Origin: Nocardia altamirensis NBRC 108246
GTDB taxonomy: Bacteria; Actinomycetota; Actinomycetes; Mycobacteriales; Mycobacteriaceae
Assembly: GCF_001612685.1 (NCBI RefSeq)
Contig: NZ_BDAY01000002.1
Span: 55,367-119,366, forward strand
Reading direction: 5' to 3'
DNA: 64,000 nucleotides
A model generated the notes under the pieces. It saw only the letters and a program-made list of their open reading frames with translations, did not search any database and had not been told where the DNA came from. The translations under genes were made by a program, and so were the position numbers. This document shows, in pieces, positions 28,104 to 61,946 of the stretch. Position 1 is the stretch's first letter. The number at the start of each line of letters is the position of its first letter.

Positions 28104-29132
28104 ATGACCACGACCAACAGCGCACCGACCACACCCGTGAGCCACCGCATCCTTGGCCGCACCGGGCCGACCGTGTCGGCACTCGGCCTCGGCATGATGG
28201 GCATGTCGGACCTGTACGGCCCCGCCGACGACGTCGAATCCATCGCCACCGTCCACGCCGCCCTCGACGCGGGGATCACCCTGCTCGACACCGGCGACTT
28301 CTACGGGATGGGCCACAACGAACTCCTGGTGCGGCAGGCCTTGCGCGGCCGCGATCGGGACAACGCGGTGATCAGCGTGAAATTCGGCGCCCTTCGCGAT
28401 CCGGACGGCGGCTGGAGCGGTTACGACGGCCGTCCACAGGCGGTGAAGAACTTCGTCGCCTACAGCCTGCGCAGGCTCGGCACCGACCACATCGACATCT
28501 ACCGCCCGGCCCGCCTGGATCCGGCCGTGCCGATCGAGGACACCATCGGCGCCATCGCCGAACTCGTGCAGGCCGGTCACGTCCGTCACATCGGTCTGTC
28601 CGAGGTCGGCGCCGACACGCTGCGCCGTGCGGCGGCCGTGCACCCGATCTCCGACCTGCAGATCGAGTACTCCCTGCTCTCCCGCGGCATCGAAGCCGAG
28701 ATCCTGCCGGTCGCAAGGGAATTGGGGATCGGGATCACCGCATACGGCGTGCTGTCCCGTGGTCTGCTTTCCGGGCACTGGACCGGGGACCGCACCTTGA
28801 ACGGCCACGACTTCCGCGGAATCAGTCCGCGATTCCAAGGCCCGAACCTGGCGCACAACCTGGCGCTGGTCGACGCGCTGCGCACCGTCGCGCAGACCAT
28901 GGATCGCAGCGTCGCGCAGGTCGCCATCGCCTGGGTCGCCGCTCAGGGCGTCGATATCGTGCCGCTGGTCGGCGCCCGCCGTCGCGGCCGCCTGGCCGAA
29001 GCGCTCGGCGCGGCCGACCTGACGCTCAGCCCGCAGGACCTGGCCACCATCGAGCAGGCCGTTCCCGTCGGCGCCGCCGCGGGCGACCGCTACGCGGCTC
29101 CGTTGATGACCGAACTCGACAGTGAACGCTGA
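28104..29132 (+). CDS. Aldo/keto reductase
   Basis: This 342-residue AKR has a TIM barrel opening RILGRTGPTVSALGLGMMGMS. The catalytic Asp/Tyr are in LLDTGDFYGMGHNE and Lys in VISVKFG. Instead of the usual His after the fourth strand it has IDIYRPARLDP, as in several bacterial AKRs of the pyridoxal-reductase-like group. NADPH binding is suggested by GARRRGRLAEALGA. The start is ATG 28104, with ACGGAG as SD. It forms a likely two-gene unit with the SDR 84 bp downstream, under the divergent TetR. Confidence 0.88.
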   Translation: MTTTNSAPTTPVSHRILGRTGPTVSALGLGMMGMSDLYGPADDVESIATVHAALDAGITLLDTGDFYGMGHNELLVRQALRGRDRDNAVISVKFGALRDPDGGWSGYDGRPQAVKNFVAYSLRRLGTDHIDIYRPARLDPAVPIEDTIGAIAELVQAGHVRHIGLSEVGADTLRRAAAVHPISDLQIEYSLLSRGIEAEILPVARELGIGITAYGVLSRGLLSGHWTGDRTLNGHDFRGISPRFQGPNLAHNLALVDALRTVAQTMDRSVAQVAIAWVAAQGVDIVPLVGARRRGRLAEALGAADLTLSPQDLATIEQAVPVGAAAGDRYAAPLMTELDSER

Positions 29133-29215
29133 TCTCTGCCCATCCTGTGGTCCGGCGGGGCCAGGTGTTCCTGTCCCCGCCCTGGCCAAATCTCTTCCAC
29201 AGCAAGGAATCCGAT

Positions 29216-29965
29216 ATGTCTCTGCACGGAAAAGTCGCTCTCGTCACCGGCTCCTCCCGCGGCATCGGCCGCGCGATCGCCCTGCGCTACGCCGAGCGCG
29301 GCGCCGATCTCGTCATCAACTACGCCCGTGACGCCGCCGCCGCGGCCGAGGTGCAGGCCATCGCCAGCGCGGCAGGCGGCAAAGCCATCACGGTCAAAGC
29401 CGATGTCTCCGACGTCGACCAGATCGACCAGCTGTTCACCACCGCCATCGAGACGTTCGGGAAGGTCGACATCGTGGTGGCCAACGCAGGCATCGAGAAG
29501 GTCGACATCCCGGTCACCGAGATCACCGAGGAGGACTTCGACCTGCTGTTCCGCATCAACACCAAGGGACCGTTCTTCGTGATGCGGGCCGCGGCCCGTC
29601 ACATCGCCGACGGCGGCCGCATCATCAACATCTCCTCCAGCTCCACCGCCAGACCGCACCCGGGACTCGGGCTGTACGGCACCAGCAAAACCGCACCCAA
29701 GTACCTGGTTCGGGTGCTGGCGCAAGAGATCGGCCACCGCAAGGTCACCGTGAACTCCTTGGTCCCAGGGCCTATTGCGGGCGCGGGCATCTTCACCGAT
29801 GTCAACGACACCGATCCCTACCAGAAGGCGCTGCTGGACTCGGTACCGCTCGGCCGCCTCGCCACCCCTGGCGACGTCGCCGATATCGCCGAATTCCTCG
29901 CAGGGGACCAGTCGTTCTTCATCACCGGCGAGGAAATCCTCATGAACGGCGGGTCCAGCAACTGA
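29216..29965 (+). CDS. Short-chain dehydrogenase/reductase (classical SDR)
   Basis: This 249-residue classical SDR has the cofactor motif VTGSSRGIGRA, ADVSDVDQ, VANAG, catalytic Ser in NISSSSTA and YGTSK for Tyr/Lys, and the ending NGGSSN. It is likely an NADP-dependent alcohol/ketone reductase. The RBS is weak (AGCAAGGAATCCGAT before ATG 29216). Its position behind the aldo-keto reductase suggests the pair detoxifies or modifies carbonyl compounds sensed by TetR. It converges with the PKS operon 15 nt downstream. Confidence 0.88.
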   Translation: MSLHGKVALVTGSSRGIGRAIALRYAERGADLVINYARDAAAAAEVQAIASAAGGKAITVKADVSDVDQIDQLFTTAIETFGKVDIVVANAGIEKVDIPVTEITEEDFDLLFRINTKGPFFVMRAAARHIADGGRIINISSSSTARPHPGLGLYGTSKTAPKYLVRVLAQEIGHRKVTVNSLVPGPIAGAGIFTDVNDTDPYQKALLDSVPLGRLATPGDVADIAEFLAGDQSFFITGEEILMNGGSSN

Positions 29966-29980
29966 CCAAGTGAACCCTGG

Positions 29981-31372
29981 CTATCGCGGTGTGGACCCGA
30001 CCGGAGTGACCGCGAGTTGCTTTGCCAACTTGCGCAACCGCTTCCGGTACGACACGTGCTCGACCTGTAACCAGTGGCGTTCGGACCGGTAGAAGTCGAT
30101 GCCTCCGTTCAACTCCGGCCCGTGCACCGGATTCGCTTTCGCGGCGCGGAACCGCGCGGCCCGCCGTGGATCGGTCTTCAGCAGATACAGGTACCTGCCC
30201 ATGATCTGCGACTGATAGTCCATGATCGGCCAAGTGCCGGTGGAGATTTGGACATAGCCGATGACGAAGAGGTTGTCGTACTCCGGGTGGAAGGCGTGCA
30301 GGTGCAGTTCCGGGATCGGGCCGTCGGACCAGTTCAGGTGCTTGCGGTCGATGAAAGGGAACTCGGCCTGACGGTAGCCGGTGGCGTACACGATGACATC
30401 GACCTGCTCGGTTGAGCCGTCCGCGAAACGCACACGGTCACCACATAATTCGACGATGTCCGGCTTGACGCCGATCTCGCCGTGGCCGAGGTGGTAGAGC
30501 AGCGTGGAGTTCATCACGAAATGCTCTTCCAGCAGCTTGTGTTCGGGTCGGGGCAGGCCGAAGCGAAGTGGATTGCCCGGGCTGTTCAACCGCAGCAGCG
30601 GTTTGCCCATGGCGCGGACGAGCGGCCGCGGCATGCGAAACTTCAGGATGAGTTCGTAGTAGGCATCGGTCGGGATGCCGAACATGTACTTCGGCCAGAT
30701 GTAGTTGCCGCGCCGGACGCTCAGGAAGGTCTGCGCGGCGCTCTGGCTGCTCTCCACCGCGATATCGCATCCGGAGGTGCCCGCGCCGACGACGAGTACC
30801 CGCTTGCCGCGCAACACATCCTGGCCCTTGTAGTCCGCCGAATGCATCGTCAGTCCGTGGAAGACGCCCGGTATTTCCGGTCGGCGTGGCGACCAGTTGT
30901 GCCCGTTCGCGATGACCAGGCCGCCGTACCTGCGTTCCGAGACGCCGTCGGCGGTGCGGACCCGAACGATCCAGTCCGGCCCGCCGTCGACCCGGTCCGC
31001 CGATTCGACCGAGCTGTCGAACTCGATGTGCTCGCGCACGCCGAAATGTGCTGCGTAGGAACGCAGGTAGGACATGATGTGACGCTGGCCGAGGTAGGTC
31101 GGGTAGTCGTCCGGGATCGGGAAGTCCGTGTACCGGATGAACGGCTTCGAGGTGATCAGGTGAATCGACGGGTACGCGGCGCTGGTCGGGCAGCCCGGAT
31201 TCCAGGTGCCGCCGACATCTGACGCCCGTTCGATCACATCGACCGCAATGCCGTACTCCAGCAGGTTCTTCGCCGCGGTCAGGCCTGCGGCGCCCGCGCC
31301 GATGACGCAGTAGCGATCGGAGCGGTCCTCGCACGCGGTGTTGGCCACCGTCGGCTCGAGTAGTGTTTCCAC
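29981..31372 (-). CDS. Flavin-containing monooxygenase (class B), last gene of PKS operon
   Basis: This 463-residue enzyme has an FAD motif VIGAGAAGLTAAKNL near residue 25 and an NADPH motif VLVVGAGTSGCDIAVE. Between them is FHGLTMHSADY, matching FxGxxxHxxxY. The Tyr version favours N/S-oxygenating FMOs over Baeyer-Villiger enzymes, which carry Trp. A YATGYRQ motif follows. It starts 3 nt after the stop of the KR-DH gene, so it is cotranscribed with the synthase and probably oxygenates its product. No signal peptide. Confidence 0.88.
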   Translation of the reverse strand: METLLEPTVANTACEDRSDRYCVIGAGAAGLTAAKNLLEYGIAVDVIERASDVGGTWNPGCPTSAAYPSIHLITSKPFIRYTDFPIPDDYPTYLGQRHIMSYLRSYAAHFGVREHIEFDSSVESADRVDGGPDWIVRVRTADGVSERRYGGLVIANGHNWSPRRPEIPGVFHGLTMHSADYKGQDVLRGKRVLVVGAGTSGCDIAVESSQSAAQTFLSVRRGNYIWPKYMFGIPTDAYYELILKFRMPRPLVRAMGKPLLRLNSPGNPLRFGLPRPEHKLLEEHFVMNSTLLYHLGHGEIGVKPDIVELCGDRVRFADGSTEQVDVIVYATGYRQAEFPFIDRKHLNWSDGPIPELHLHAFHPEYDNLFVIGYVQISTGTWPIMDYQSQIMGRYLYLLKTDPRRAARFRAAKANPVHGPELNGGIDFYRSERHWLQVEHVSYRKRLRKLAKQLAVTPVGSTPR

Positions 31373-31375
31373 GGT

Positions 31376-33832
31376 CTAATCGTCCTTTCCGTAGCGAATT
31401 CCATGGGCGACCAGCCGGACCCTTCCCTCCGGGGTGTACGCGGTCGAGGTGTCGCCGTAGGCCGTGACCTGGCCTGCGGAGCCGACCAGTGGGCCGGGAA
31501 TATCGATCGAGTCGATCGTGAGCAAGCGCGCCGAATCGCCGATCCGGCGCGAATATGCCTCGCGCAGCATCGTTTCCAGTTGGTTCAGCGGCAGTTCGGG
31601 CAGCGGCGACGGCACGCCGAGCACCAGATCACGCATCCGGTCGGCGTCCACCTCGACAGACCGGGCGCCCGGTGTCCACCGGCCGAGACGGAAGACCTGG
31701 CCGTGCCAGCCGAGCCTGCGCACCGCGCGGCCCGGTTCTACACGTCCGTCGGTCACGAGAGCCAGCGGCGCGGAGGATATTTCGGGTCCGTCTCCGTAGC
31801 GCAGGGTCGCCGTCGCGACCAGGTCCGTGTCACGGCGGATCTCGACGCGGACTTCCCAGGTGCGGTCGGCGGCCCACCGGCCCTGCGCGCTTGCCTGGAA
31901 CCGGGCGCCGTTGCTGTGCGCGCGGGTGGCGGTGAGATCGATGCTGACGTCCCGGATAGCCGACAGCGGCTGCTCTTCGCCGTCCGGCTGCACCCAATCG
32001 CCCAGTGAGCGCAGGAATTCGAGTAGCACGCTGAGCGGAACGGCGGGGCTGGCATCCACGCGGAAGTCGCCACAGGCGAGCAGCTGGTCCGCGGTGAATT
32101 CGACCTCGGTCTCCAACAGTGCTCCGCTGACGAACCGGATCGGATTGCCGAGGAAGAGCAGGCGGTTGGCGAGGCGCTCGATCCCGGCCAGGTCGGTCGC
32201 AGGCGGATATCCGCGCAGTAGTGTCGGCAGCATGGCCTTACCGAACTCGCCGACAAAGGTGAGTTCGCCCGTGCTGCCCGCCAGGACCTCGCTTTCCCAA
32301 TGCTGCAACCCTTCGTCGACCCGCATCGCCGACATGTAGGCCAGGGTCGCTTCGTAATTGGTGATGATGCCGAGGCGTTCCCACGTCGGCCAGCACATCG
32401 TGGCCACCGGAACCCGGACGGGGCGACCCGGCTGGTCGGCCGCGCTGGCCGCCCACAACCCGATCCGGCTCAGCGCGTCGTTGGCCGCGCCGTATTCGAG
32501 CTGGCCGACCATCCCGCCCCAGCGCCCGGCGAGCGATCCGGCCGTGCTGACGAACCGAATTGCCGGGTAATCCGCCAGCGCGGCAAGGATATTCATTAAC
32601 CCGGTGACCTTCGCGCCGACCGTCCCGCTGATCACCTCCGGTGACTTGGACGGCAGCCGGACCGGTGCGTCCACGCCTGCGTTGTGCACCACACCGGCCA
32701 GTCCAGGCCCGGCCGCCGCGAGCAACGCGCGCACCTGCTCCGGGTCGGTGACATCGCATCGGTGATAGCTGATGTCGAGCCCTTCGGCCCGTGCGGCAGC
32801 CAACCTGGCCGCGAGCTGCCGGTTCCATTCGGCGCGTGCCAGCACTGCGCGGGTCCGGCCGAGCGTGCGCAGCCGGGCCGCCTCGATCAGCATGCGATCG
32901 CGATGCTGGCGGAAGTCGTTGTCCGACAACAGCACAATCGGGTCGTCCGGATCCGGCATGGGACTTCTGCCGCTGATGATCACCCGGCAGCGGTGCTGCT
33001 GCGCCAGGCGACGCGCCAGTGCGAAACCGATGCCTCGGCCGCCGCCGGACATCACGACCACATCGCCGGGGCCGAGATCGACCACCGGACCTGGCACGTC
33101 CACCTGATCGGCCGCCAGGGTGTAGCGCCTGCCTGCGTGGTGGCCGATCTCGAAGTAGCCCCACCGATACAGTTCGCGGCAGATCAGGCCTGCCATCTCG
33201 TCGTCGAGTGGTGCGATCCGCGCGCCGTCGGCCGGAAAGTCAAGCACCCGGACGTTCACGTTGTCGAATTCCCGTGGCAGCCCCTTCGCCAAACCCGCCC
33301 ACAACCCGCCGAGTGGTTGGGCGATGCTGCCGTCCGCATAGCCGTGCCGCCCGTCCATCCTGGTCACGGCGACATAGAACAGGCGCTGCGCATCCGATTC
33401 GGTGCGCCAGTCGTCGTAGGTGTGCTGCAACAGCTCGATCGTCTGCAGCAGCTGGGCATTCCAGTCACCGGTCGGCGAAAGATCGAAGGGCCGTTCGTAA
33501 TTCAGATCGATGATGCCGTCGATGCGCCCGACCGTCCGGGAGAACTCGGCAACGTCGGCGCCCTCGTGCGGCGGTGCCAGCCGCGACGGTGCCGCACCGG
33601 CGCCGGTCAAGGCAGCCATGACTCGCTCGGCCGATGCGTCGCTCCCGCCGAGCACCACGATCCGACGGCCGCGCAGCTGCGCGCTCGGCTCGGGTGGCGC
33701 CGCGGCGATTTCCCTTGGGTGCCAGACGAATCGGCGCACGGGGAGTACCGAACGATCGGCGGGCACATCGATGTCGGCGGGTTCGCGGTCGTGCGTCGGC
33801 GCGATCGAGCCGTTCGATCGTCCGCGTGTCAT
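31376..33832 (-). CDS. Polyketide synthase-type ketoreductase with degenerate dehydratase domain
   Basis: This 818-residue protein begins at ATG 33832, overlapping the P450 stop by ATGA. Residues 50-240 are the structural KR subdomain (RIVVLGGSDAS; FYVAVTRMDGRHGYADG). Residues 245-540 are the catalytic KR (VVMSGGGRGIGFALARRL), with Tyr447 in LEYGAANDAL. A hot-dog DH-like region follows from about 570. Where HxxxGxxxxP should stand it has GDFRVDASPAVP, with Phe590 replacing the catalytic His. KR activity is predicted; the DH is probably structural. It belongs to the PUFA-type synthase operon and supplies a second KR. Confidence 0.82.
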   Translation of the reverse strand: MTRGRSNGSIAPTHDREPADIDVPADRSVLPVRRFVWHPREIAAAPPEPSAQLRGRRIVVLGGSDASAERVMAALTGAGAAPSRLAPPHEGADVAEFSRTVGRIDGIIDLNYERPFDLSPTGDWNAQLLQTIELLQHTYDDWRTESDAQRLFYVAVTRMDGRHGYADGSIAQPLGGLWAGLAKGLPREFDNVNVRVLDFPADGARIAPLDDEMAGLICRELYRWGYFEIGHHAGRRYTLAADQVDVPGPVVDLGPGDVVVMSGGGRGIGFALARRLAQQHRCRVIISGRSPMPDPDDPIVLLSDNDFRQHRDRMLIEAARLRTLGRTRAVLARAEWNRQLAARLAAARAEGLDISYHRCDVTDPEQVRALLAAAGPGLAGVVHNAGVDAPVRLPSKSPEVISGTVGAKVTGLMNILAALADYPAIRFVSTAGSLAGRWGGMVGQLEYGAANDALSRIGLWAASAADQPGRPVRVPVATMCWPTWERLGIITNYEATLAYMSAMRVDEGLQHWESEVLAGSTGELTFVGEFGKAMLPTLLRGYPPATDLAGIERLANRLLFLGNPIRFVSGALLETEVEFTADQLLACGDFRVDASPAVPLSVLLEFLRSLGDWVQPDGEEQPLSAIRDVSIDLTATRAHSNGARFQASAQGRWAADRTWEVRVEIRRDTDLVATATLRYGDGPEISSAPLALVTDGRVEPGRAVRRLGWHGQVFRLGRWTPGARSVEVDADRMRDLVLGVPSPLPELPLNQLETMLREAYSRRIGDSARLLTIDSIDIPGPLVGSAGQVTAYGDTSTAYTPEGRVRLVAHGIRYGKDD

Positions 33833-35208
33833 GGATTCCTCGGTATGAGGCGCAGCGGGATGCCGCCGACCGGGCGCAGCGACACCGCCGTCGACAAGTG
33901 CACGTCGCCGCCTGCGGCGGGGTGGATCGTGAAGCGAGACACCAGCATTGCCAGCGTGAGGTGCAGCTGGGTCAAGGCCATCGATTCCCCGACGCATTTG
34001 CGCTGACCGCCGCCGAAGGGGAAGAAGGTGTACTTCGGCCGGTTCTTCTTGGCGGCCTCGGTGAATCGCTCAGGATCGAAGCGCTCGGGCGCCTGCCAGA
34101 AATCCGGATGCCGATGCGTCACATACGGACTCACGAAAACGCAGTCGCCCGCCGGGACGTGCCACCCGGAGATCTCGTCGTCGGCCAGCGCCGCACGGGG
34201 GTAGACCCAGATGGGCGGGTTGAGCCGCAGCGACTCGTCGACCACCATCTTCGTGTAGGTCAGCTCGGCGAGATCCGCGGTCACCGGGGTCCGGCCGCCG
34301 AACACGCGCTGGGTTTCCTCGAAGAGTCGTTGCTGGATCTCGGGCGCGCGAGCCAGCTCGTACAGCGCCCACGCCAGTCCCATTCCGGTGGTCTCGTGAC
34401 CGGCCATGAAGATGGTCATCAGCTCGTCACGCACCTCCTCGTGCGACAGCGGCGCGCCGCCCTCGCCCTCGGTGCTCGCCAACAACAGGTTGACCAGATC
34501 CGGCCGTTCGGCGTGGGCTCCGGTCTGATGCGCTTCGATGATCCGCTCGATCACGTCGTGCATGGCATCCCTGGCGCGGGTGGTGCGCAGGTTGGACGGG
34601 AACGGCAGCCACGGGGGCAGCAGCTCCGGCAGGGTGCCGCGGAACACCATCGCCTTGACGGCCGTGTCCATGGCCACCCCGATCCGCTCCCGGTCGCCGT
34701 CCAGATCCGTGTCGAACATGATCAAGCCCAACGCGCCCATGGTGATTCGCATCATCTCCGGAATCACGTCACCGCGGTATCCGTCCGGCCCGCGCCGCTC
34801 CCAGTCCTCGAGCACGCGCGCGGTGGTGGACACCATCAGGTCGACCATCGTGTCGATCGCCATCCGATGGAGCATCGGATTCATCGCCCTGCGCCGCTGC
34901 CGCCACGGCTCCCCGTCGGCAGTCAGCAGTCCGTTGCCCATGAAGATCTTGAATCGTTCGTAGCCGATGCCGCGGATGTAGTTGGCGTTGTTGTCCTGCA
35001 GCACATGCTTGATGCCGTCCGGGTGGCACACCAGCGTGGCCGTCATCAACCCGAGCGGCAAGCGGACCGTGTGACCGTAGGTCCGGCACAGCGATTCGAA
35101 CAAGCCGGGGGCGTTGGTGCGCAGCGCTGTCACGTTCTGCGGAATCCGGCGGGCCCCGAGCGGGCCAGGCGGCAGTCGGAGCGAGGTAGCGGTGTCGATG
35201 GCGACCAT
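33829..35208 (-). CDS. Cytochrome P450 embedded in the PKS operon
   Basis: This 459-residue P450 has N-terminal LRLPPGPLGARRIPQNV, the I-helix MTIFMAGHETTGMGL, an ExxR in VVDESLRLNPPIWVYPR, and the heme loop FFPFGGGQRKCVGESMAL with the Cys ligand. It resembles CYP4/CYP110-like bacterial P450s that act on fatty chains. It starts 1 nt after the stop of the giant synthase gene and overlaps the next gene by 4 nt, so it is an integral tailoring enzyme. It is soluble, with no anchor. Redox partners are not in the window. Confidence 0.92.
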   Translation of the reverse strand: MVAIDTATSLRLPPGPLGARRIPQNVTALRTNAPGLFESLCRTYGHTVRLPLGLMTATLVCHPDGIKHVLQDNNANYIRGIGYERFKIFMGNGLLTADGEPWRQRRRAMNPMLHRMAIDTMVDLMVSTTARVLEDWERRGPDGYRGDVIPEMMRITMGALGLIMFDTDLDGDRERIGVAMDTAVKAMVFRGTLPELLPPWLPFPSNLRTTRARDAMHDVIERIIEAHQTGAHAERPDLVNLLLASTEGEGGAPLSHEEVRDELMTIFMAGHETTGMGLAWALYELARAPEIQQRLFEETQRVFGGRTPVTADLAELTYTKMVVDESLRLNPPIWVYPRAALADDEISGWHVPAGDCVFVSPYVTHRHPDFWQAPERFDPERFTEAAKKNRPKYTFFPFGGGQRKCVGESMALTQLHLTLAMLVSRFTIHPAAGGDVHLSTAVSLRPVGGIPLRLIPRNP

Positions 35209-35209
35209 A

Positions 35210-38200
35210 TCAATCGACCTCTTTCAGATAGTCGGTGACGATCCAGTGAATGCCTTTGAGCGCCAATATGATTTGACCGTTTGGCCGGGTGGCGACGAAC
35301 AGATTCTCCGCCGCGTCGCGCCCAGGAACCACGGCATACAGCTCGACCGGCCCTGAGCCGGCGACGAGCGCGTCGTTGGTGTGCTCATAGAGATCAAGCC
35401 GATCGATCCGCAGCGGCGCCGCGACCGGCAGCCCCCGGTCGTCGCCCGCGGACAACACCCCGGTCCGCAGCAGGCCGTCGAGCAGCACGACCGGAACGCG
35501 GAAGTGCGAGAAGGTCGGGTCGCCAGGGGCGAGCTGCAGACAGTAGGTGGCACGCTTGCCGAGCGGATGCAGCCTGGTGTCGGAGGTCGATTCGAAGACT
35601 CCGGTCAGCAGGACCGGGGAGCCACTCAGGTGATAGGGGTCGACCACGGGACGCTCCGCCGCCGCATACCAGGGCGTCCAGCGCGGTGCCGCGGGTAGCG
35701 CGGCCGCCATCAGAACGGTGGTGCTGAAGTGCACCCGGTCCTGCACCAGCATGGCGCCGTTGGGCGCGACGACATCGGAGGTCACCTCGATGCCGACCGA
35801 CACCTGGCCGAGGTCGGCGCACTCGTCGAGCACCTCGGCCCTGATCCGCGTCAGGACAGGCCGATCGGCCGCGTACACCTTGAGGAAGCGATGAAATACC
35901 AAGTCCTCCAAGGCATACACCTGCATCGTCGGCACCAGTGCACGCGCCGCCTCCAGCGCCAGCTCCGCGACGAACGCGCCTGGCAGCGTCGGCACACCGT
36001 TGACCCGATGATCGGCCAGATAATCGTCTCGGCCCAGATCGAAGGTGCGCTCGTATACGGCCCACGAACGCCCGTCCATGACACCGCCCGCGGTCTGGCG
36101 ATCGAGGTAGAACGGGCGCGGTGTCGGCCCGAGGAAGCCGGGCAACAGCGCGTCGACCGCACCGTATTCCGCGGTACCCAGGTGCGCCACATAGGGACTG
36201 CGCTGGACCGCCTGCAACTGACGGATGAAATGGTGCGCACCCTCGTCTGTCGACATGTTCGAGTACTGACCGGTCCGGTCGAAGTAGGCCTTCGTCAATT
36301 CGTTTGCGGCGAGCCCGACTTCGTTCCAGAGCGTCCACCCGATGGTGAACTCGTCCCGGCCCGCGCTCGCCGCCAGCGCCGCGGTGCCGAGGAAATCATT
36401 GGCCGACGCGTAGTCCACCTCGCCGATCTGGCCGGTGGCCCCGAGCAGCGACCCGAAGTTGCACCACATGCGCGGTGGGCGGGTCGCAAGCGCCGTGACG
36501 AGGTTGGTGTAGCCGAGCAGTTTGATATCGCGAATGCTGCGGAACTCGCCGAAATCCTTGGCCGAGATCGGCGCCGACCGATTCAAGCCTGCCGCGTTGA
36601 TCAGCAGGTCGATCCGGCCCATCGACGCGTGGATGTGCGCCATCGTGCGCTCGACCGCGGCACGATCCCTGACGTCGCAGACGAGATACTCGACGGTGGC
36701 GGCGCCCGCTTCCCTGATGCGCTGAAGATTGTGGATCGTCTTGCGCACGTTGGCCATTCGCTCGAACTCGGCGTTCAGCTCGCGTGCGGTCGCCGCGGGG
36801 TCCTCGGTGCGCCGCCGTCGCATGTATTCCCGTTTCGTCGCGGCGAATTCGGCGTCGCTGAGCCGGAGATACTGCGCTGGAATCGAATCGAGTGCGCTGG
36901 TGCCGAGCACCTGGATCCGGCCGCCGAAATTCTCGGCAACGGCAACAAGCAGCTCGGCCGTGATGCCTCGGCCGCCGCCGACGGCGACCACCACCGAATT
37001 CCGTTCCAGCCGTGGGGTTTCGTCCAACACGTCGTCGAGCACGGTCAGCGCGCTGCGGTAGCGGACGCCGTCGGCGTAGTAGGCGATCGGCATCGAACGA
37101 TCGAGCATCGACTCCGCCTCGACCACCGCGCAGCCCTGTCCGAAGTCGCCGTCGGTCACCACGGCGAACGTGGTGCCGAGCGGCCGTTCGAGCGCGGCGA
37201 CCTTGACCGCTCCGGTGAACAGGCCGACGTAGGGGGCCGGCGTGGTTTCCGCGAGCGCGCGAGTCAGCAGCACCACGGTGGACGCATCGGGTTCGGCCAG
37301 TACGTCCGAGAGCTGCTGCGCCACCAGGAACCACAGATCGTGCAGCGCGCGAAGCGTATTCGTGCGATCGGTACCCACTGCATCCGGCAGGTCGGCGACC
37401 AGCCGCAGGTGCCGAGGCCTACCGCACTCCGCCAGCAGATCGGCAACCGCCGCCTGCGTCAACTCCGGCACGTGCCGGACACCCGCACCGGGTCGCAGTG
37501 ACAGCACGGTGGTCTGCGCCGGTATTGCGGTGCTGTGCAGCAGCTGCGGATCCTCGACGAGTAGCAGCGTTGGCTCGTCAGGCAGGAAGCGGGTCGACGG
37601 GTGTACCGCAACCCCGGCGTCAGGCACCAGGCCCCAACCGTGGCTGTCGACGACCGTGGGGGCGAGGGCGCCGTTCTCGTCCCGGAACTGCGCCGGGTCG
37701 AGGAAATCCGCAGCAAGCGTGGAACTTTCGACAGGACGCGGAACGACAATGCCCGGCGCGACCGCAGCGCCGATGGCTCCGGAGCGCCGATCGACGCCGG
37801 CCTCCGGACCGCTTACGCGGATCGCGGCGTCCGGCGCGCCTTCCTCGCCGCGGCACCGCACGACCACCGCGCCGTCGGCCGCGACGGTACGCAGGGCCGA
37901 GATGATGCCGAAGGCACCCTCACCACCGAGGAAGTTCGGTCGCCCCGAGTCATTGCGCGCACCGCATTCGACGTCGGCGCCGACCGCAGCGGCGACCGGT
38001 TCCAGGAAGCCGATGACCGGCAGCCCGGCCGCGGCCGCGGTCTCCTCGGTGGTCAGCGCGAGCAGGAAGGCACCTTCCGCGAGGCAGGCCCCGGCGGGCA
38101 GCAGCCCATCGAGCAGAGTCCGCTGTTCGTCGGTGGTGTTGCCGTTGATCCCGCCGACCAAAGCCATGCGCAGCTCGCCGGTGCGCAGATACCGCGATGC

Positions 38201-41134
38201 CACATCGATCGCGCTCATCGCGGCGGTGAAGCCGGTGTCGACGGTCATGTTCAAGCCGTTGAGCCCGAAGTAGTTCGCCACCCGTGCGGGAATGACGTTC
38301 GGCATCATGCCGGGAAAAGTGTTCTCGGTCGCCGGTGGCACGAGCGCCCGGATATCCGCCGCGACATCGTCGAGCACCTGGTCGAGCCATGATTCGCAGG
38401 CCAAGCCGGGATCGGCGCGCAATGCGGTCGCGGCATCGTCGAGGTAGCAGCGCGTCGCATAGAGGACGGCATTGCGAGTTTCCCCGAAATGGCCGAGTAT
38501 CACGCCGGTTTCGGCTTGCTGCTCGGTCCAGAATGCGCCGAGGTCAGCGTGGATGGCGCGGGCGCAGGCGAGGATCATCAGTTGGCAGCGATCGATCGCG
38601 CGCATCAGCGCAGGCGGCAGCTTGACCTCCTCGATGGTCGGCAGCGGGTACTGGTCGCCGAAGGTGGTCGCGGGATGCGCCGCGGCCGACCACTCGTCCG
38701 GGTCGGTCGCACCGGGCAAGCTGGACGCGACAGCCACCACGGCGAGCCGTCCCGGTGTTGGCAGCGTGCGCGCCGCACCGACAGCTCCCGCGGTGCCACT
38801 TCCGCCGACCCGCTGGTCGGACACCGGCGGTTCCTCGAGCACCAGATGCGCGTTGGTGCCGCCGAAGCCGAAGCCGGACACGGCCGCGGTGCGCGGCTGC
38901 TGGCCACCAGCGGGCCAGCGCAGCGCGGTCTTCGGAATCTCCAGATTGCTCGCATCGATCATGAATTCCGCTGGCGTCTGGACGAACCGGTGCTGCGGTG
39001 GAATCAGCTCGTTCGAGAACCCGAGCAACACCTGCACCAGCGACGTGGTCCCCGCCGCCCATCCGGTATGACCGATGACCGACTTGTTCGACGTCACCCG
39101 CACCGGCTCGGGACCCGCCATGGTGGCCCGCAGTGTGGCGAACTCTGCGGCGTCCCCGGCAGGCGTGCCCGTGGCGTGGGCGACGATCCAGTCCGGGATC
39201 ACCCCTGCCATCTGCGGCTGCGCCTGTGCACGCCGGACGGCGAGCTCCTGGCCCGCGGCAGCGGGCGCGTAGATCGCCTTGCCCTTGCCGTCGGAGGCGG
39301 CGCCGAAAGACTTGACGACGCCGAGGATTCGGTCGCCGTCGGCGCGCGCCCGGCGCAGGGACTTGAGCACCACCGTCGCCGCGCCGTCGGAAAACAGGAC
39401 GCCGTCGCTGGTCTCGTCGAAGCTGCGCACCGCGCCGCGCTCCGACAGGCCGTTCAGCTTCGCGAAGAGCACCGACCCGCGCGGGCCGACCGCGAACGCG
39501 CCGCCGCACACCGCGATGTCGTAGCGCCCCTCCAGCAAGCCCTTGATGCCGAGATCCACGGCGTACAGCGAGGACGAGCACGCGGTGTCCACCATCATCA
39601 TCTCGGTGTCGTCGGGCAGCAGGCCCGCCATCGCACCGGCGCCGACCTGATGCGGGAACACCCGATTCTGATCGATGACACTGCGGGGATACCGCTGGCG
39701 CAACCGCGCCCGGATGGCCGCAAGCTTGCCGTCCGGATCATCGATCCCCATCCGTCGCAGTGCTTTTCGTGCACGCTGGAGGAAGCCTGCGACGACGACG
39801 GCCTCCTCGGCGTGCTGATTGCCGTCCGCGGTGTACCCGACCAGGAAGCCGAACTTGTCCGACGGCCGCCGGACCACCGAATCCATTGCCTGCAGGACCG
39901 AGTTGCGCAACCACAGCGTGGTGGATTCGATATCGCCGGGCGTCTCACCTGCGGCGGCCAGCTCCGCCGCCAAGGCAGGATGCGGAACGAAATCGGTGAT
40001 GAACGCCGAATGTTGGGAATAGGACTTGTCTTCGGCGGTCCGATCCGATGCGTAGAAGGCGCTGTTGTCCCATCGATCGGACGGGACACGGGTGAAACGA
40101 TCGTCGCCGTCGACGAGTTCGCGCCAGAACTCGTCCGGGTTGTTGGCGCCGGACACCGTGATGCCCATGCCGACAACGACAATGGCGTCCGCCTGGTCGA
40201 GGTCGTCTGCGTGGTTCAGGTCGTCTGCCGCGTTCGCACCGTCCGTCGCGTCGTCGGCCGGGGTCGTCGCGACGGGTTGCGCGACGACCGATTCCGAGAC
40301 GACGGGTTGCGCGCCGACCGGTTGGGTGACGACCGGTTGGGCGGCAGCGTCTCGCGGCGGCGACAGCAGCGCGGCGCCGGTGGACAAACCACCGTCGGCC
40401 AGCAGGACCTGCCCGGTCACCCAGCTCGCATCCGACGAGGCCAGGAAGGAGACGATAGCGGCGAGCTCGTCCGGCGTGCCGAGCCGCTGCAGCGGTGTTG
40501 CGGCGATGGTCGCCCGCTGCATCGCCACCGCGTCCGGAAACTGGTCAACCACAGGGCTTTCCAACATCCCGGCGGCGGCGGTGTTCACTCGGACACCGAA
40601 TTCGGCGAACTCGACGGCCAGATAGCGGGTCATCGCCTCGACCGCGGCCTTGGCAGGCCCGCAGGCCAGATAATTGGCCATCACGAGCTGACCGCCGCCG
40701 AGCGTCGAGACATTCACGATGCTCGCACCTGGCCGGTGCTGCATCAGCGGCAGCGCTCTGCGCGCACACCCGAGTCCGCCTTTGAGATTCGTGTCGATCG
40801 CCCGATCGATCATCGCCTCGTCGACGTCGGCATAGCCGGCGAGGCGGCCGTCGGCGGCGCTGTTCACCAGAATGTCGAGCGCCCCGAATTCCGTGGCGAT
40901 CTCGTCGAACATCCGATCCCGCTGGGCCGCGTCCGCGACCGAGGCGCGGATGATGTGTGCCCATCCGCCCGCGGCTTCGATGTCGGCCTTGGTGGCCCGA
41001 GCCTCGGCGGGCGAGCGAAAGTGGTTGATGATGACCAGTGCGCCATCGGCGGCCAGCCGTAAGGCGATGGCCCGTCCCACATTTCGCGCGCCGCCGGTGA
41101 CCAGCGCGATCTTCCCTTCGAATTTGCCTGCCAT
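35210..41134 (-). CDS. Multidomain iterative synthase: FabL-type ER - KS - chain-length factor - KR - DH
   Basis: This 1974-residue protein opens with an SDR (residues 1-255) carrying GGARNVGRAIA. Its active site has Ser143 and Tyr155-X6-Lys162, the spacing of FabL enoyl-ACP reductases rather than YxxxK. A Pro/Gln/Asp-rich linker (260-315) leads to a ketosynthase with Cys519 (DTACSSS), His653 (AHATGTP) and His689 (IGHTGW). A chain-length-factor-like second KS follows, with Phe969 in place of Cys. A KR comes next (GGGRGITAELLV, Tyr1575), then a DH with intact HRVNGVPTLP (His1709). KS-CLF-DH arrangement is typical of PUFA and secondary-lipid synthases. It probably builds a partly reduced chain iteratively on the ACP of the upstream gene. 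Confidence 0.85.
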   Translation of the reverse strand: MAGKFEGKIALVTGGARNVGRAIALRLAADGALVIINHFRSPAEARATKADIEAAGGWAHIIRASVADAAQRDRMFDEIATEFGALDILVNSAADGRLAGYADVDEAMIDRAIDTNLKGGLGCARRALPLMQHRPGASIVNVSTLGGGQLVMANYLACGPAKAAVEAMTRYLAVEFAEFGVRVNTAAAGMLESPVVDQFPDAVAMQRATIAATPLQRLGTPDELAAIVSFLASSDASWVTGQVLLADGGLSTGAALLSPPRDAAAQPVVTQPVGAQPVVSESVVAQPVATTPADDATDGANAADDLNHADDLDQADAIVVVGMGITVSGANNPDEFWRELVDGDDRFTRVPSDRWDNSAFYASDRTAEDKSYSQHSAFITDFVPHPALAAELAAAGETPGDIESTTLWLRNSVLQAMDSVVRRPSDKFGFLVGYTADGNQHAEEAVVVAGFLQRARKALRRMGIDDPDGKLAAIRARLRQRYPRSVIDQNRVFPHQVGAGAMAGLLPDDTEMMMVDTACSSSLYAVDLGIKGLLEGRYDIAVCGGAFAVGPRGSVLFAKLNGLSERGAVRSFDETSDGVLFSDGAATVVLKSLRRARADGDRILGVVKSFGAASDGKGKAIYAPAAAGQELAVRRAQAQPQMAGVIPDWIVAHATGTPAGDAAEFATLRATMAGPEPVRVTSNKSVIGHTGWAAGTTSLVQVLLGFSNELIPPQHRFVQTPAEFMIDASNLEIPKTALRWPAGGQQPRTAAVSGFGFGGTNAHLVLEEPPVSDQRVGGSGTAGAVGAARTLPTPGRLAVVAVASSLPGATDPDEWSAAAHPATTFGDQYPLPTIEEVKLPPALMRAIDRCQLMILACARAIHADLGAFWTEQQAETGVILGHFGETRNAVLYATRCYLDDAATALRADPGLACESWLDQVLDDVAADIRALVPPATENTFPGMMPNVIPARVANYFGLNGLNMTVDTGFTAAMSAIDVASRYLRTGELRMALVGGINGNTTDEQRTLLDGLLPAGACLAEGAFLLALTTEETAAAAGLPVIGFLEPVAAAVGADVECGARNDSGRPNFLGGEGAFGIISALRTVAADGAVVVRCRGEEGAPDAAIRVSGPEAGVDRRSGAIGAAVAPGIVVPRPVESSTLAADFLDPAQFRDENGALAPTVVDSHGWGLVPDAGVAVHPSTRFLPDEPTLLLVEDPQLLHSTAIPAQTTVLSLRPGAGVRHVPELTQAAVADLLAECGRPRHLRLVADLPDAVGTDRTNTLRALHDLWFLVAQQLSDVLAEPDASTVVLLTRALAETTPAPYVGLFTGAVKVAALERPLGTTFAVVTDGDFGQGCAVVEAESMLDRSMPIAYYADGVRYRSALTVLDDVLDETPRLERNSVVVAVGGGRGITAELLVAVAENFGGRIQVLGTSALDSIPAQYLRLSDAEFAATKREYMRRRRTEDPAATARELNAEFERMANVRKTIHNLQRIREAGAATVEYLVCDVRDRAAVERTMAHIHASMGRIDLLINAAGLNRSAPISAKDFGEFRSIRDIKLLGYTNLVTALATRPPRMWCNFGSLLGATGQIGEVDYASANDFLGTAALAASAGRDEFTIGWTLWNEVGLAANELTKAYFDRTGQYSNMSTDEGAHHFIRQLQAVQRSPYVAHLGTAEYGAVDALLPGFLGPTPRPFYLDRQTAGGVMDGRSWAVYERTFDLGRDDYLADHRVNGVPTLPGAFVAELALEAARALVPTMQVYALEDLVFHRFLKVYAADRPVLTRIRAEVLDECADLGQVSVGIEVTSDVVAPNGAMLVQDRVHFSTTVLMAAALPAAPRWTPWYAAAERPVVDPYHLSGSPVLLTGVFESTSDTRLHPLGKRATYCLQLAPGDPTFSHFRVPVVLLDGLLRTGVLSAGDDRGLPVAAPLRIDRLDLYEHTNDALVAGSGPVELYAVVPGRDAAENLFVATRPNGQIILALKGIHWIVTDYLKEVD
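40190..40350. repeat. Low-complexity repeats encoding the ER-KS linker
   Basis: Short imperfect repeats (GACGACCGG/TTGGGCG-like and GGTCGTCTG units) encode the linker QPVVTQPVGAQPVV and ADDLNHADDLDQAD. Such sequence can vary in length by slippage without breaking flanking domains, because the units are multiples of three. Confidence 0.5.
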
Positions 41135-41143
41135 GTCCGCTGC

Positions 41144-42631
41144 CTATGCCGCACTGATCAGGTCGGCGATCCGCCCGAGCGTGTTGTGCTCACCGATCTT
41201 GAAATCCGCGGGCAGCGGCCCGAGTTGATAGGTCTCGCCGATCTTGCGCAGCAACTCGGTCTGCTTCACCGAATCGACGCCGAGCTCCGCCTCCAGGTCG
41301 GCGTGCTCGTCGAAAACCTCCGGCGGATACTCCAGTGCTTCCGCGTAGATGCCGACCAGTTGCTGAAAGAGCTCGTCGCGAGCAGGCACTGCGCGCGCTT
41401 GCTCGGCGCTATCGGCCGGAGCGGAGCGACCGGATTCGACGGGTGGCGGGTCAGGTGCCCGATCGAGCACGAAATCGGTTGCCGGAGTTGGTAGCTCGAC
41501 AGGCAGCTCGGCCCGAGCTGACCCGGAGGTGTCAGCGGTGGCCGAGAATTCACTGATCACGAGCCGCGCGATGCGGTCGACACGTGCGGTCCACAGTCGT
41601 TCGAACTCGGCGTTGCCCAGCCCGGGAGCCAGTGCCAGCCGCACCTGCTCGGACTGGGTCGACGACCGGGCTCGGTCCTCGCCGAGTGACGCGAGCGTTT
41701 CCATCAGCGATGTACCAGGCAACAGCAACGGGACAACGTCCGGTCCGTCGCCGAGCACCCGTCGGGTGATCTTGGTCAACGCATCGAGCGAACCACACTC
41801 GACGAACGTGCCGACGCCGGTGTCGCGGACTGCCCGCACCGCGGTGGCGAAATGCACCCGGCGGGTCAGATGACCGGCCAGCGCGGTGACCAGGTTGTCG
41901 CTGTTGCGATATGCGCGACCCAGGATCGGCGAGTAGACCTCGACCTCCATCCGGTACTGCGGGATATGCCGTATCCGGCTGGCGAAATCGAAGGCCGCGT
42001 CGCGCAGCATCGGACTGTGGAACGGGTACGGCGACTTCAGTGTCACCGCACCGATCCGGAGCGCACCGGCGATGGTGCGCGCGGTGTCGAGCGACGCGCG
42101 CGGGCCTGCGATGACCGTCTGGCCCTCGTGATTCTCCACTGCCGCAACGGCATCCGGGTCGCCGATCAACTGCAGAATCCGCTCTGACCTGAGCAGATCG
42201 GTACCCAACGCGAGCTGATATCCGTCCAGCTCACCCACCGAGCGCAGCGCCGCGCACCGGTGACAGATCATCTCCGCGCCGTCGGCGACGGAGAACGCGC
42301 CCGCGCAGACGAGCGCGGCGATTTCGCCGAAGCTGTGGCCGACCAACACATCCGGCCGCAGCCCGCGCGAGAGCAGCACGCGATGGGCGAGCACCGAGGT
42401 GCTGTAGATCGCCAACTGCAGCAGGTCCGGATTCGACGCTAAGAGTTCGTCGATGGCTGGGGCATCCGGCGAGAACAACAGGTCCGAGACAGTCTCGCCG
42501 GTCGATCGCTGCGCGACCGCGTCGATCTCCCTGAGCACCTGATCGGCCTCGGGCAGCTGCCGCGCAGCCGTCAACGCACCCGGAAAATATGCCCCTTGCC
42601 CTGGAAAGAGCGCGGTCATTCTCTGCACCAT
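41144..42631 (-). CDS. Acyltransferase - acyl carrier protein didomain, first gene of PKS operon
   Basis: This 495-residue protein begins at ATG 42631 with AAAGGA as SD. The acyltransferase (residues 5-310) has TALFPGQGAYFPG, nucleophile Ser100 in VGHSFGEIAAL, and the specificity/His region KSPYPFHSPMLR. After a proline-rich linker (about 345-400) comes one acyl carrier domain with the phosphopantetheine Ser454 in LGVDSVKQTELLRKI. The DSVK context is closest to PUFA/enediyne-type ACPs, but there is only one copy. It loads malonyl-type extenders and carries the chain for the giant synthase 9 nt downstream. No phosphopantetheinyl transferase is nearby. Confidence 0.88.
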   Translation of the reverse strand: MVQRMTALFPGQGAYFPGALTAARQLPEADQVLREIDAVAQRSTGETVSDLLFSPDAPAIDELLASNPDLLQLAIYSTSVLAHRVLLSRGLRPDVLVGHSFGEIAALVCAGAFSVADGAEMICHRCAALRSVGELDGYQLALGTDLLRSERILQLIGDPDAVAAVENHEGQTVIAGPRASLDTARTIAGALRIGAVTLKSPYPFHSPMLRDAAFDFASRIRHIPQYRMEVEVYSPILGRAYRNSDNLVTALAGHLTRRVHFATAVRAVRDTGVGTFVECGSLDALTKITRRVLGDGPDVVPLLLPGTSLMETLASLGEDRARSSTQSEQVRLALAPGLGNAEFERLWTARVDRIARLVISEFSATADTSGSARAELPVELPTPATDFVLDRAPDPPPVESGRSAPADSAEQARAVPARDELFQQLVGIYAEALEYPPEVFDEHADLEAELGVDSVKQTELLRKIGETYQLGPLPADFKIGEHNTLGRIADLISAA

Positions 42632-42695
42632 GATCGAATCCTTTCCAGCGTCGAAAAACGCACTGTCGCAAAAGAAGTCGGAGATGAGACCCGCA

Positions 42696-42723
42696 GTCGG
42701 CCCACCCGAGCGGGTGGGCCGAC
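42696..42723 (-). terminator. Terminator between hydrophobic giant and PKS operon
   Basis: GTCGGCCCACCC-GAGC-GGGTGGGCCGAC is a perfect 12-bp stem, 20 nt after the stop at 42744. It implies that the synthase operon has its own promoter in 42632-42695, although read-through is possible. Confidence 0.7.
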
Positions 42724-42743
42724 CACGGGCTGCGGTCAAGAAA

Positions 42744-45700
42744 TCACAGCGACACCGCCACCAGGCGGTTGGTCGAGGCTTGGACCGGACCTTCGGCCAC
42801 ACCTGCTCCGACGGTCGGCAGCTCGGCCTTGGGCGCAACCGCCGCTGGCGCAACTGCCTCGGCCGCAACCGGCTTGGGACTCAACACGTCCTGCAGCCCG
42901 GCCACGAGCTCCGAGGTGCTGAGATCCCCGCTGACACTGCGCCTGCCGCCGCGCAAGGTCCGCGTGGACCCGCCGCCCATCGGCTTCGAGACCAGCAGCA
43001 ACGGCAGCGCGAACGCACCGCCACCGAGGAAGATGCCACCGGCGGCCAGCAGCGAAACCACCGCAATGCCAACGGCGATCACCGGCACCCCGACGACGGC
43101 CGCGGCCAGGATGGCCGTTACCAGGCCTGCGCCCGCGAGCGCGACCAGGGACACCAGGCCGAGCACCGCGGCGAGCGCGATCGCCACCAACGGGAACGCG
43201 AACACCGCGACCGGCAGGAACACCGCGTACACGACCGAAAGCGCTCCGGCGATCGCCATACCGGCCACCGCGACGATCGCCGTTGCGACCACCGCGACCG
43301 CGGCGAACGCGAGGCCGACCACAATGCCGACCGCGACCATCGCCCCGAGCAGCACCAGTGCCGCACCGATCCCGAGGGCGGTAGCCAACCAGAAGGCCGC
43401 GACGATCGCGATCGCGACCGGAATCGTCACCACCCACAGCGGCGGGAACAGCACCGAGACGAAGAGCAAGGCCGCGGCGAACGCGAGAATCGACACCGCC
43501 CAGAGGAAGCCGAGGCCGAGGAACGCGGCCGCGACACCCAGGGCGACCACGACGCCGGTGACCACCGTCGTCGCGATCGTGGCCAACAGGCTCGCCCCGA
43601 TCACACCGAAGATGAGCGGTGCTGCCAGCAGTGCCAGCGGCGGGCAGAAGATGATCGCGACGATCGCGGCAAGCACGAAGCCGACGAAGGCGACCGCCGT
43701 CAGCACGAAGCCACTGGCGAAGAGCAGGCCGACGGCGGCGACCGCCACCACGGCCATCGCCAGCATGAAGGCACCGCCTTCACCCAGCGTGAGCGCGGTG
43801 GCGCCCAAGGTGATCGCGGCCAGCGTCACCGCAACGATCGCGGCGAAGACGATGTCCGCGAGCAGGATGAACGGAATGGCCCACGGCATGAGCACCATCA
43901 GGAGCACCGAGCCGGCCAAGACCAGTCCGGCCATGCCGACCACGATCCCGAGACCGACGACAACACCGATCACTGTGGCGATCGTGCCAAGCGCGAACCC
44001 GGCGAACATGAAGCCGAGCCCGAGGACCACCGGAAGTGCGACCAGTCCGAGGAACAGCAGCGGAGCAATCAACGGACCGATGACCGGAAGGCCGAGGATC
44101 GCCAGTGCCGCCGCGACCGTGCCGAGGCCCAAGCCGAGGACGACAACGACGATCCCGGCGATCGCGAGCAACTTCGCGATGCCACCGAGGATGTAGCCCA
44201 TCACGACACCGGCGACGATGGCGACCGCAATCCCCACCAGCGACAGCGCCAGATGAACGATGAAGGTGGCACCGGTCACCACCGACAGGATCGCCAAACC
44301 GGCGACTCCCACCACGCCGAGCGCCACGAGCGCCACCACACCGAGCGCGACGGCGACCACGCCCAAGGCGACGACGAGGACGGCCAGGATCGGCAGTGCC
44401 AGCAGGCCGAACGGCGTGAACAGCGAGAGCACACCGGTGATCACCGCGAGCGCGCCGACCGCGAGCGCGCCGAGCAAGAGCAGGCCGAACGTCGCCGCGG
44501 CGGTCAGCAACAGCCCGCCGACGAGGATGACGAGGGCGCCGCCGAACAGCAGCGGCAGCAGGATCGGCGCCAGCGGCGCAAGCACCGTGCTTATGATCGC
44601 CGCCGCGACCGTGGCCAGCACGAACGCGACTGCGGTCAGGGCAATTCCGATCACGAGCGCGACGGCCGCGGCGACGATCGCGGCGACGCCCACCACCGCG
44701 ATGCCGACGAGCAGGGCGGTCAGGATGAACGGAGCAGCGATCTGGAAGAGCACGAAAGCGGCCACCAGCAGCGGCAACCCGATGAACACCACACCGGCGA
44801 CCACCGCGGCCAACGCCGCCAGGCCGAGCAGTGCGATGAGGCCCGCACCCAACAGAATCGGCCCGAGGAAGATCGCGCCGAGCACGAGCGCGCCGATCCC
44901 GAGTGCGAGCGCGATGCCACCCAGCACCACCGCACCGATCGCCAGTGCGCCGAGCACGAGCGGGGCCAGCACGATAGCGCCGAGCACCAACGCACCGATC
45001 ACAAAGGGCGCGAGCACGATTGCGCCGAGCACGAGTGCACCGATCCCGAGCGCGAGTGCGATGCCACCCAGCACGGCCGCACCGATTCCCAATGCGCCGA
45101 GTACGAAGGGCGCGAGCACAATTGCGCCGATCGCCAATGCTCCCAGCACGAAGGGGGCGAGCACGATGGCGCCGATCGCCAGCGCACCGAGCACGAACGG
45201 CGCCAGTACGACGGCACCGATCGCCAACGCACCCAAGACGAAGGGCGCAAGCACGATCGCGCCGACAACCAAGGCGCCCAAGATAACTGGCGACAGCACG
45301 ATGGCGCCGATCACCAAGCCCGCGATGATGAGCCCAACGGGCACGATTGCCACGCCGACCACCACGAAGCTGTTGTGGGTCGGCAGCAGCGCACGCACCG
45401 ACTGCAGCAAGGTGTCGCGCACCGGCGCGAATACCGCGCCGAGTGCCGTGCCAGGAGCGATCGCACTCAGCAGCGGCGTCAGGAAGCCGGTGAAGGGTGC
45501 GAGCGAGGCCGCCAGCGTCCCGGACTGCACCACCTGTTCGAACGCGCCGATCAGCGCGGTCATCGGCAGCGTCCCCGCGGAGACGGCGGTCAGTGTCGGC
45601 GCCACTTCCCGTAGCGCGGGCGCGAACTGCATGATGACCGGACGGATGGCGTCGGCCAGCGGTCCGGACTGCAGCAGCGGCGTCAGGCGCTCGGTGAGGA

Positions 45701-46619: not shown

Positions 46620-47113
46620 GTCTCGCCTATGCCTTTCGATCATGCTGACCCGTACTGCGTGAGCAACCCCGGGACCTGAAGGTGTGGGGCAGGCCAACGA
46701 GTACTGGGGGAGCGCGTGACAGCGGACGGTCAAGGTCGTTGAGGAACACTGAGCGCTCCCTGCAGGAGCAGATAGCTACAGATTTGCCATGCGGGTAGAT
46801 CGGATGACGCAAGCATCATGATTCGCACGGCTCACTAGCGCAGACAAGTCCCTTTTGGAACACATTCGACATAACCGCAGGTAGAAGACCTGGGGAGAGG
46901 TTCCGCTGCGGATAGTTGTTATCGTTTTGCGTCAGAAACCCTCTGGACGCCTCGAAATTCGTCAGGTATGGGAGATTGCCAAAAAATTGCCGGAATCTTG
47001 ACGCCGTCACTGTTGAATGCGTAGATTTGCCGAGTTCCGCACTGCGGATACCGCGACCTCAGCCAATGCCGAAGCCCGCGTTCTGATATTTGCTGTGCCG
47101 TCGATCAGAGGGT
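46620..47113. other. 494-bp intergenic region
   Basis: This gap holds the promoter side of the hydrophobic-protein gene (minus strand) and the 3' flank of the kinase gene. GC is lower than in flanking genes, especially 46840-47000. Short frames here (for example 46816-47010) lack SD and codon bias. No RNA gene, terminator with a strong stem, or mobile element was recognised. Confidence 0.5.
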
Positions 47114-55078: not shown

Positions 55079-55220
55079 GCGCTATTCCTGGGGAATGTCG
55101 AGCCTCGGGTGCGTGGCCACTTCGGGATGGTGTCACAGGTGCGGCCGCTTCCCAGTGCTGGTGGCGGCTGCCGTGGGACGCGACATACCGTCAGTGAACC
55201 ATCCGGTTGGGTTGGACGCC

Positions 55221-55240
55221 GCGGACATCGTCATGTCCGC
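55221..55240. promoter_or_regulatory. Inverted repeat upstream of StyA-type gene
   Basis: GCGGACAT-CGTC-ATGTCCGC is a perfect 8-bp inverted repeat in the 248-bp divergent region, 87 bp before the GTG of the monooxygenase gene. It could be a regulator site. Confidence 0.5.
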
Positions 55241-55326
55241 TTCGGATATACCGATGTGGCCGACACACCTATAGGTCGATGATTCTTCCAGTGCCACAAG
55301 AGAATTCGTGATTGGGAGGGCCAGAA

Positions 55327-56541: not shown

Positions 56542-56571
56542 CGAAGGCGACAACGCATTGGGACACCGGAC

Positions 56572-61943: not shown

Positions 61944-61946
61944 GGA

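Follow-up and report, generated by a model that had tools for sequence, protein, structure and literature searches.

PfaABCD and the secondary-lipid synthases, grouped as types A to T (Shulse and Allen 2011, PMC3098273), are iterative type I enzymes in which ketosynthase (KS), chain-length factor (CLF), acyltransferase (AT), acyl carrier protein (ACP), ketoreductase (KR), dehydratase (DH), and enoyl reductase (ER) functions are split over several proteins, and according to the text of that paper tandem ACPs are not strictly required. Here, we analyzed a five-gene operon of Nocardia altamirensis NBRC 108246, located in a window of 64,000 nt on contig 2 (NZ_BDAY01000002.1) of the 9.83-Mb, 167-contig assembly, in which the same functions are accompanied by a cytochrome P450, a second ketoreductase protein (KR2), and a flavin monooxygenase (FMO). 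As judged from its sequence, the operon belongs to a separate family of iterative KS-CLF synthases; this family would work like a secondary-lipid synthase but lacks several features by which that group is recognized. We propose, with belief and doubt about evenly balanced, that it encodes an iterative fatty-acid/polyketide synthase and that the P450, KR2, and FMO give a hydroxylated or otherwise oxygenated acyl or lipid product.

Compared with the Pfa synthases as described in the text of PMC3098273, the operon has no tandem ACPs, an ER of the short-chain dehydrogenase/reductase (SDR) type instead of the PfaD type, a duplicated KR with a dead DH, and both a P450 and an FMO. None of the orders described in that text matches, and the words P450 and oxygenase do not occur in it; the orders of some types, including the actinobacterial types M and Q, are given only in a figure, and the family may be identical to one of these. 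The heterocyst glycolipid (Hgl) synthase, type F in the same text, shares the KS-CLF secondary-lipid machinery, but it has KS-CLF-AT on hglC and no DH/I, whereas the window operon has DH, ER, and P450. The zeamine, fabclavine, megapolipeptin, and chitinimine hybrids (PMC13291983) also contain PUFA-like synthases with recruited extra tailoring domains; however, they work with nonribosomal peptide synthetase and modular polyketide synthase (PKS) partners, the word P450 is absent from the main text of that paper, and its introduction and the first part of its section 7 describe no such order. Cluster 11, a Nocardia pfaA cluster (PMC4035055), is a Pfa-type PKS that differs, as far as the paper's text describes it, by having KS/AT/ACP/ACP/KR in one protein; it is probably the counterpart of a separate PfaA-type synthase of this genome (contig 45, approximately 57495-63845) and not of the window operon. 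A word search of the N. seriolae genomics paper (PMC13391507) gave hglE-KS clusters without domain detail, and one of PMC7413640 gave no such cluster in the matching passages. Our literature search, which covered mainly titles and the opening parts of abstracts and few subscription papers, found no characterized cluster of this gene order, consistent with the original prediction that the order does not match the standard PfaABCD or enediyne orders. Enediyne PKSs (PKSE) carry KS-AT-ACP-KR-DH and a phosphopantetheinyl transferase (PPTase) in one protein and are not known to have a CLF. They share with the window synthase its iterative type I character and an actinobacterial origin; however, in the window AT-ACP is a separate gene and the operon has no PPTase.

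The five genes lie on the minus strand from position 42631 down to 29981, and their open reading frames (ORFs) are separated by 9, 1, -4, and 3 nt, exactly as predicted; the five-gene operon is thus confirmed. Pfam and NCBIfam searches gave the order, from 5' to 3', AT-ACP; SDR-KS-CLF-KR-DH; P450; KR2 (818 aa, a KR followed by a dead DH); and FMO. The predicted domains agreed with these searches, and the pseudo-DH also with fold comparison and with its missing catalytic His; the same agreement holds for the duplicated KR, the single ACP, the (likely) N-terminal ER, and the two oxygenases within one operon. As had also been predicted, no thioesterase or PPTase was detected by Pfam or NCBIfam within the five genes; three PPTase matches lie elsewhere in the genome. 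The AT-ACP gene starts with an ATG at 42631, with AAAGGA ahead of it, and the ATG of KR2 overlaps the stop codon of the P450 gene as ATGA. A 19-bp stem with a 4-nt loop (42689..42730, minus strand) occupies the interval that separates AT-ACP from the gene upstream of it and may mark a transcript boundary; the region from 42640 to 42745 folds at -53.4 kcal/mol (z -5.2). A simple scan found no sigma-70-like promoter.

The arrangement proved to be a widespread conserved family rather than an oddity of this genome. A genome scan yielded 276 confirmed relatives, and 80 were kept for locus counts; downstream genes were counted in 74 of these (six with less than 5.5 kb were dropped) and upstream genes in 76 (four with less than 2.5 kb were dropped). 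The AT-ACP gene was located upstream of the KS gene in 74 of the 76 loci. Downstream, P450 was present in 59 loci and KR2 in 61, with both in 59 and neither in 13; that is, all 59 P450 loci have KR2, and 59 of the 61 KR2 loci have P450. The order after the KS gene was P450-KR2-FMO in 20 loci (8 from Actinomycetota and 12 from Pseudomonadota), P450-KR2 in 19, KR2-P450 in 15, P450-P450-KR2 in five, and KR2 alone in two, and FMO was found only together with P450 and KR2 (20/20). The KS-P450-KR2 core also occurs in Bacillota and Chloroflexota (loci L013, L017, and L034). Homologs were listed and aligned for 120 of at least 1517 KS-protein matches and 120 of at least 161 KR2 matches. The Pfam set was the same in most of the 120 listed KS-protein homologs, from 94% down to approximately 42% identity, which argues that the architecture of the operon is beyond chance; the closest named homologs among them were from Nocardia, the top one being 94% identical.

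The P450 gene (33829..35208, minus strand; PF00067, 1.5e-90) encodes the FGGGQRKCVG heme loop and the AGHETT and ESLR motifs. Its best PDB matches were the putative P450 7wzl and then LUTEIN DEFICIENT 5, P450 4B1, and P450 102, among others. In some relatives the P450 is fused to the C-terminal end of the KS protein (2 of 80 loci; 12 of the 120 listed KS-protein homologs), and in others to the front of KR2 (12 of 80 loci, exactly the 12 proteobacterial P450-KR2-FMO ones; among 120 listed homologs, 13 by Pfam and 12 by motif and length). Since these fusions join the P450 to either neighbor in different lineages, they argue that it behaves as a part of the synthase and suggest the carrier-bound chain as its putative substrate. 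The last gene (29981..31372, minus strand; PF00743, 6.5e-56) encodes a class B FMO with GAGAAG and GAGTSG, which we take to be nucleotide-binding motifs, and FHGLTMHSADY, presumably the FMO motif FxGxxxHxxxY.

KR2 (31376..33832, minus strand) consists of a second ketoreductase and a C-terminal dead dehydratase (31379..32200, minus strand), in which Phe replaces the catalytic His; fold comparison confirmed the double-hotdog DH fold of this part. The Lys-Ser-Tyr-Asn set of the ketoreductase was kept in 121 of 121 KR2 sequences, whereas the catalytic His of HxxxGxxxxP was found in none of the 121 at the aligned position. Since the fused DH lacks its catalytic His, KR2 would leave the hydroxyl in place. 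Pfam detected a glycosyltransferase fused to KR2 in 5 of 120 listed KR2 homologs, of which three carry the name Umezawaea; this is consistent with retention and glycosylation of the hydroxyl. The KR2 frame at the Umezawaea endophytica locus is 1364 aa long. We also examined the idea that the KR-DH part of the KS protein was copied to give KR2: the two KR domains aligned at 28%, and no sequence alignment was obtained for the DH domains.

The first gene (41144..42631, minus strand) encodes an acyltransferase with GHSFG (PF00698, 2e-24) and one acyl carrier protein with LGVDSVK (PF00550, 1e-10). The AT is likely of the malonyl type, as suggested by its NCBIfam ranking, in which all models scored below their cut-offs and the MdcH malonyl transferase came first, PfaA third, and FabD fourth. 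Among the AT-ACP ORFs of 62 family members, one ACP motif was found in 50, as in the window, two in 11, and none in one.

The KS protein (1974 aa; 35210..41134, minus strand) was assigned from Pfam matches and conserved catalytic residues. Following the N-terminal SDR, it contains the ketosynthase (38804..40183; hidden Markov model envelope 318-777, also supported by the tree), the CLF (37805..38767), the first ketoreductase (36110..37597; PF08659), and a dehydratase with intact His and Asp (35213..36109; PF21089, 9.2e-13), all on the minus strand. The residues C519/H653/H689 of KS, K1538/S1562/Y1575/N1579 of KR, and H1709/D1886 of DH were identical in all 120 listed homologs, the window's own protein included. 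The CLF is a divergent KS-like domain to which KS models match weakly and which has Phe in the slot of the active Cys (VDTGF); across the listed homologs this slot holds F in 82, L in 27, Y in five, V in four, and Cys in at most two.

FabL-type enoyl-ACP reductases have a Y-x6-K active site and FabG a Y-x3-K site, and PfaD-type ER proteins have a fold different from that of SDRs. The N-terminal SDR (40370..41134, minus strand) reads Y155-x6-K162, and among the listed homologs having this part the Tyr was conserved in 114 of 114 and the Lys in 113 of 114; within the window, the downstream SDR at 29147-29965 reads Y-GTS-K. Its best match among solved structures was Bacillus subtilis FabL (3oic, 9.7e-44, 153 bits), ahead of SiaM (146 bits) and a 3-oxoacyl-ACP reductase (141 bits). 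Since the Y-x6-K motif and the FabL match agree, the best reading of this domain is that it is likely an enoyl reductase. The FabL equivalog of NCBIfam was the best SDR model listed, at 209.4 bits against a cut-off of 328. A plain ketoreductase was considered for this domain and set aside because the same two observations speak otherwise, by a narrow margin.

The original prediction regarded the operon as kin to the Pfa synthases, and a phylogeny of the KS had been named beforehand as a test. The features in common were upheld in part: KS followed by CLF, the latter a weak match, and DH are present, whereas there is one ACP in place of tandem ACPs, and an SDR is all that the operon offers as a candidate ER. 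The tree contained 43 KSs, comprising 22 chosen family members and 21 references, which did not include the characterized PfaC, HglE, Ars, and enediyne KSs. The 22 family KSs, from four phyla, formed a single clade (100/100, stem 1.13), and nine Pfa-type KSs formed a separate clade that grouped with ordinary PKS KSs (95/86), with FabF and the type II KSs outside. With these references, the KS did not fall inside the Pfa-type clade, so that the outcome named as refuting was reached by half: forcing the family and Pfa KSs to be sisters cost 8.6 log units and was not rejected by the approximately unbiased (AU) test (p 0.062). The whole KS protein scored 291.8 bits with the PfaA model TIGR02813 and missed its cut-off of 1010.1 bits, whereas the contig 45 synthase of the same genome reached 1540.6 bits, above the cut-off.

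These data bear on the view that the operon is a true PUFA or secondary-lipid variant, in which KS, CLF, and DH yield a polyunsaturated chain and the oxygenases were acquired late. The KS-CLF and KR-DH orders are Pfa-like, TIGR02813 was the top NCBIfam model of the KR part (65.3 bits), the KR2 part (72.0 bits), and, about tied, the CLF part (32.1 bits), and the AU test leaves sisterhood standing. Nevertheless, the KS has its own fully supported clade, and the KS part alone ranked TIGR02813 (199.4 bits) third, behind PKS_plus_SDR (217.8 bits) and Pks2 (208.3 bits); together with the shortfall of the whole protein, the single ACP, the SDR in place of PfaD, and the dedicated PfaA elsewhere in the genome, this makes the Pfa variant rather unlikely, at perhaps one chance in a few. 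A small cyclized polyketide, in which P450, FMO, a FAD oxygenase, and a SnoaL cyclase tailor a polyene, is improbable to a slightly greater degree. It draws on the neighbors of the 80 loci, which include SnoaL-like genes in 23 (two families, 14 and 11), a FAD_binding_3 oxygenase in 19, and major facilitator superfamily (MFS) exporters, and on a SnoaL_2 gene that follows FMO in N. puris, yet it has to account for a full KR-DH-ER set with conserved catalytic residues and for the lipid-type exporters that flank 14 of the 20 FMO loci (MMPL in 4, FtsX with LolA in 10). Over all 80 loci, MMPL occurred in 10, FtsX with LolA-like genes in 10, and PPTase in eight, and MMPL was found in 6 of the 60 loci other than the FMO type. 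These neighbors point toward lipid export in loci of the FMO type; the product of the SnoaL/MFS type may be a different one. That the P450 and FMO are independent genes in the operon by chance is very improbable: two loci have KR2 but no P450 and 13 have neither, as chance would allow, but all 59 counted loci with P450 also have KR2, the P450 enters two different fusions, and FMO keeps company with both in every case.

Several observations weigh against the oxygenated-lipid synthase that we prefer. The 13 of 74 loci with neither P450 nor KR2 imply that the core works without them, and 8 of the 121 KR2 sequences have a His within a few positions of the dead-DH slot. Ten of the 14 exporter cases belong to one lineage (Burkholderia/Paraburkholderia), with other ABC exporters lying outside the count, and the FAD_binding_3 oxygenase, SnoaL, and MFS genes of one subgroup are as fitting for a small polyketide as for a lipid. 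Scans covering part of the window ORFs revealed neither an exporter nor a thioesterase next to the operon. In addition, the ER assignment combines a motif, a narrow PDB lead, and a FabL score below the cut-off, and the FabG model reaches 200 bits.

The substrate, chain length, release, and product of the oxygenated-lipid synthase are predictions from the anatomy described above. A PPTase encoded elsewhere in the genome would prime the ACP, and the AT, to judge from its relatives, would load malonyl units. KS-CLF would then carry out condensation, and KR, DH, and the FabL-type ER, with the catalytic residues noted above, could complete ordinary cycles. In chosen cycles KR2 may act instead, leaving a hydroxyl that its DH part, lacking the catalytic His, would be unable to remove as water. 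The P450, as its fusions suggest, may oxidize the chain while it is carrier-bound; the FMO likely adds the last oxidation, and the product would leave by a route that the operon does not reveal. In relatives, MMPL or FtsX/LolA-type exporters are often found beside the operon. More tentatively, and with somewhat less than even confidence, we suggest a cross-phylum, previously undescribed lipid-synthase family in which the P450 is an integral subunit oxidizing the carrier-bound chain and KR2, with its fossil DH, picks the hydroxyls that survive, to which a fused glycosyltransferase would in some cases add sugar. If so, a synthase family common to actinobacteria, Burkholderia relatives, Bacillota, and Chloroflexota would oxygenate its chain during assembly and not afterward, and the way in which an iterative synthase chooses the hydroxyls that it keeps would be open to a simple genetic test. 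The family also marks a large set of uncharacterized clusters, including those of Nocardia and the Burkholderia cepacia group.

Of the 148 Nocardia genomes searched, 11 carry KR2, and such a scattered distribution would fit an accessory cluster; on the KS tree, the presence of KR2 requires two changes among the 22 family members. At the N. bovistercoris locus, KR2 directly follows the KS gene and neither P450 nor FMO was found, possibly a natural double loss. Among 72,556 plasmid records, five had a match to the KS protein at E 1e-60, which in one case spanned most of its length, and a single record matched KR2; the near-full-length KS match and the KR2 match are on the same Paraburkholderia ginsengisoli plasmid. 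Its annotated run reads acyltransferase protein, SDR protein, cytochrome P450 (the P450-KR2 fusion), and NAD(P)-binding protein (FMO), followed by ABC, FtsX-like, and outer-membrane lipoprotein-sorting proteins and, beyond two further genes, a PPTase. IS110 and IS6 transposase genes lie just upstream of the plasmid cluster. No KR2 match was found in phages. A second P450 occurs in 21 of the 80 loci, a count that includes weak matches to the first P450.

Upstream of the operon, a minus-strand gene (42744-46733) encodes a repetitive, hydrophobic protein of 1329 aa that is rich in Ala, Val, Leu, and Gly, has a signal-peptide-like start, and gave no Pfam match. This gene adjoins the cluster in N. 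seriolae, N. pseudobrasiliensis, and one further genome, and relatives of its N-terminal part occur in 17 of the 148 Nocardia genomes (8 of 11 with KR2 and 9 of 137 without), counts that are uncorrected for same-genus relatedness. It was considered as an operon member and set aside: in other KR2 genomes the matches lie at a distance or on different contigs, nine genomes carry it but lack KR2, and the strong hairpin separates it from AT-ACP here. Elsewhere in the window, a plus-strand gene (15936-17228) encodes a HipA-like kinase with a HipA N-terminal domain. Contig 8 encodes a 913-aa protein (approximately 28350-31090) with a weak KS-like part ahead of a KS and, approximately 20 kb from it (approximately 52010-60760), four KS-like genes with a PPTase match among them.

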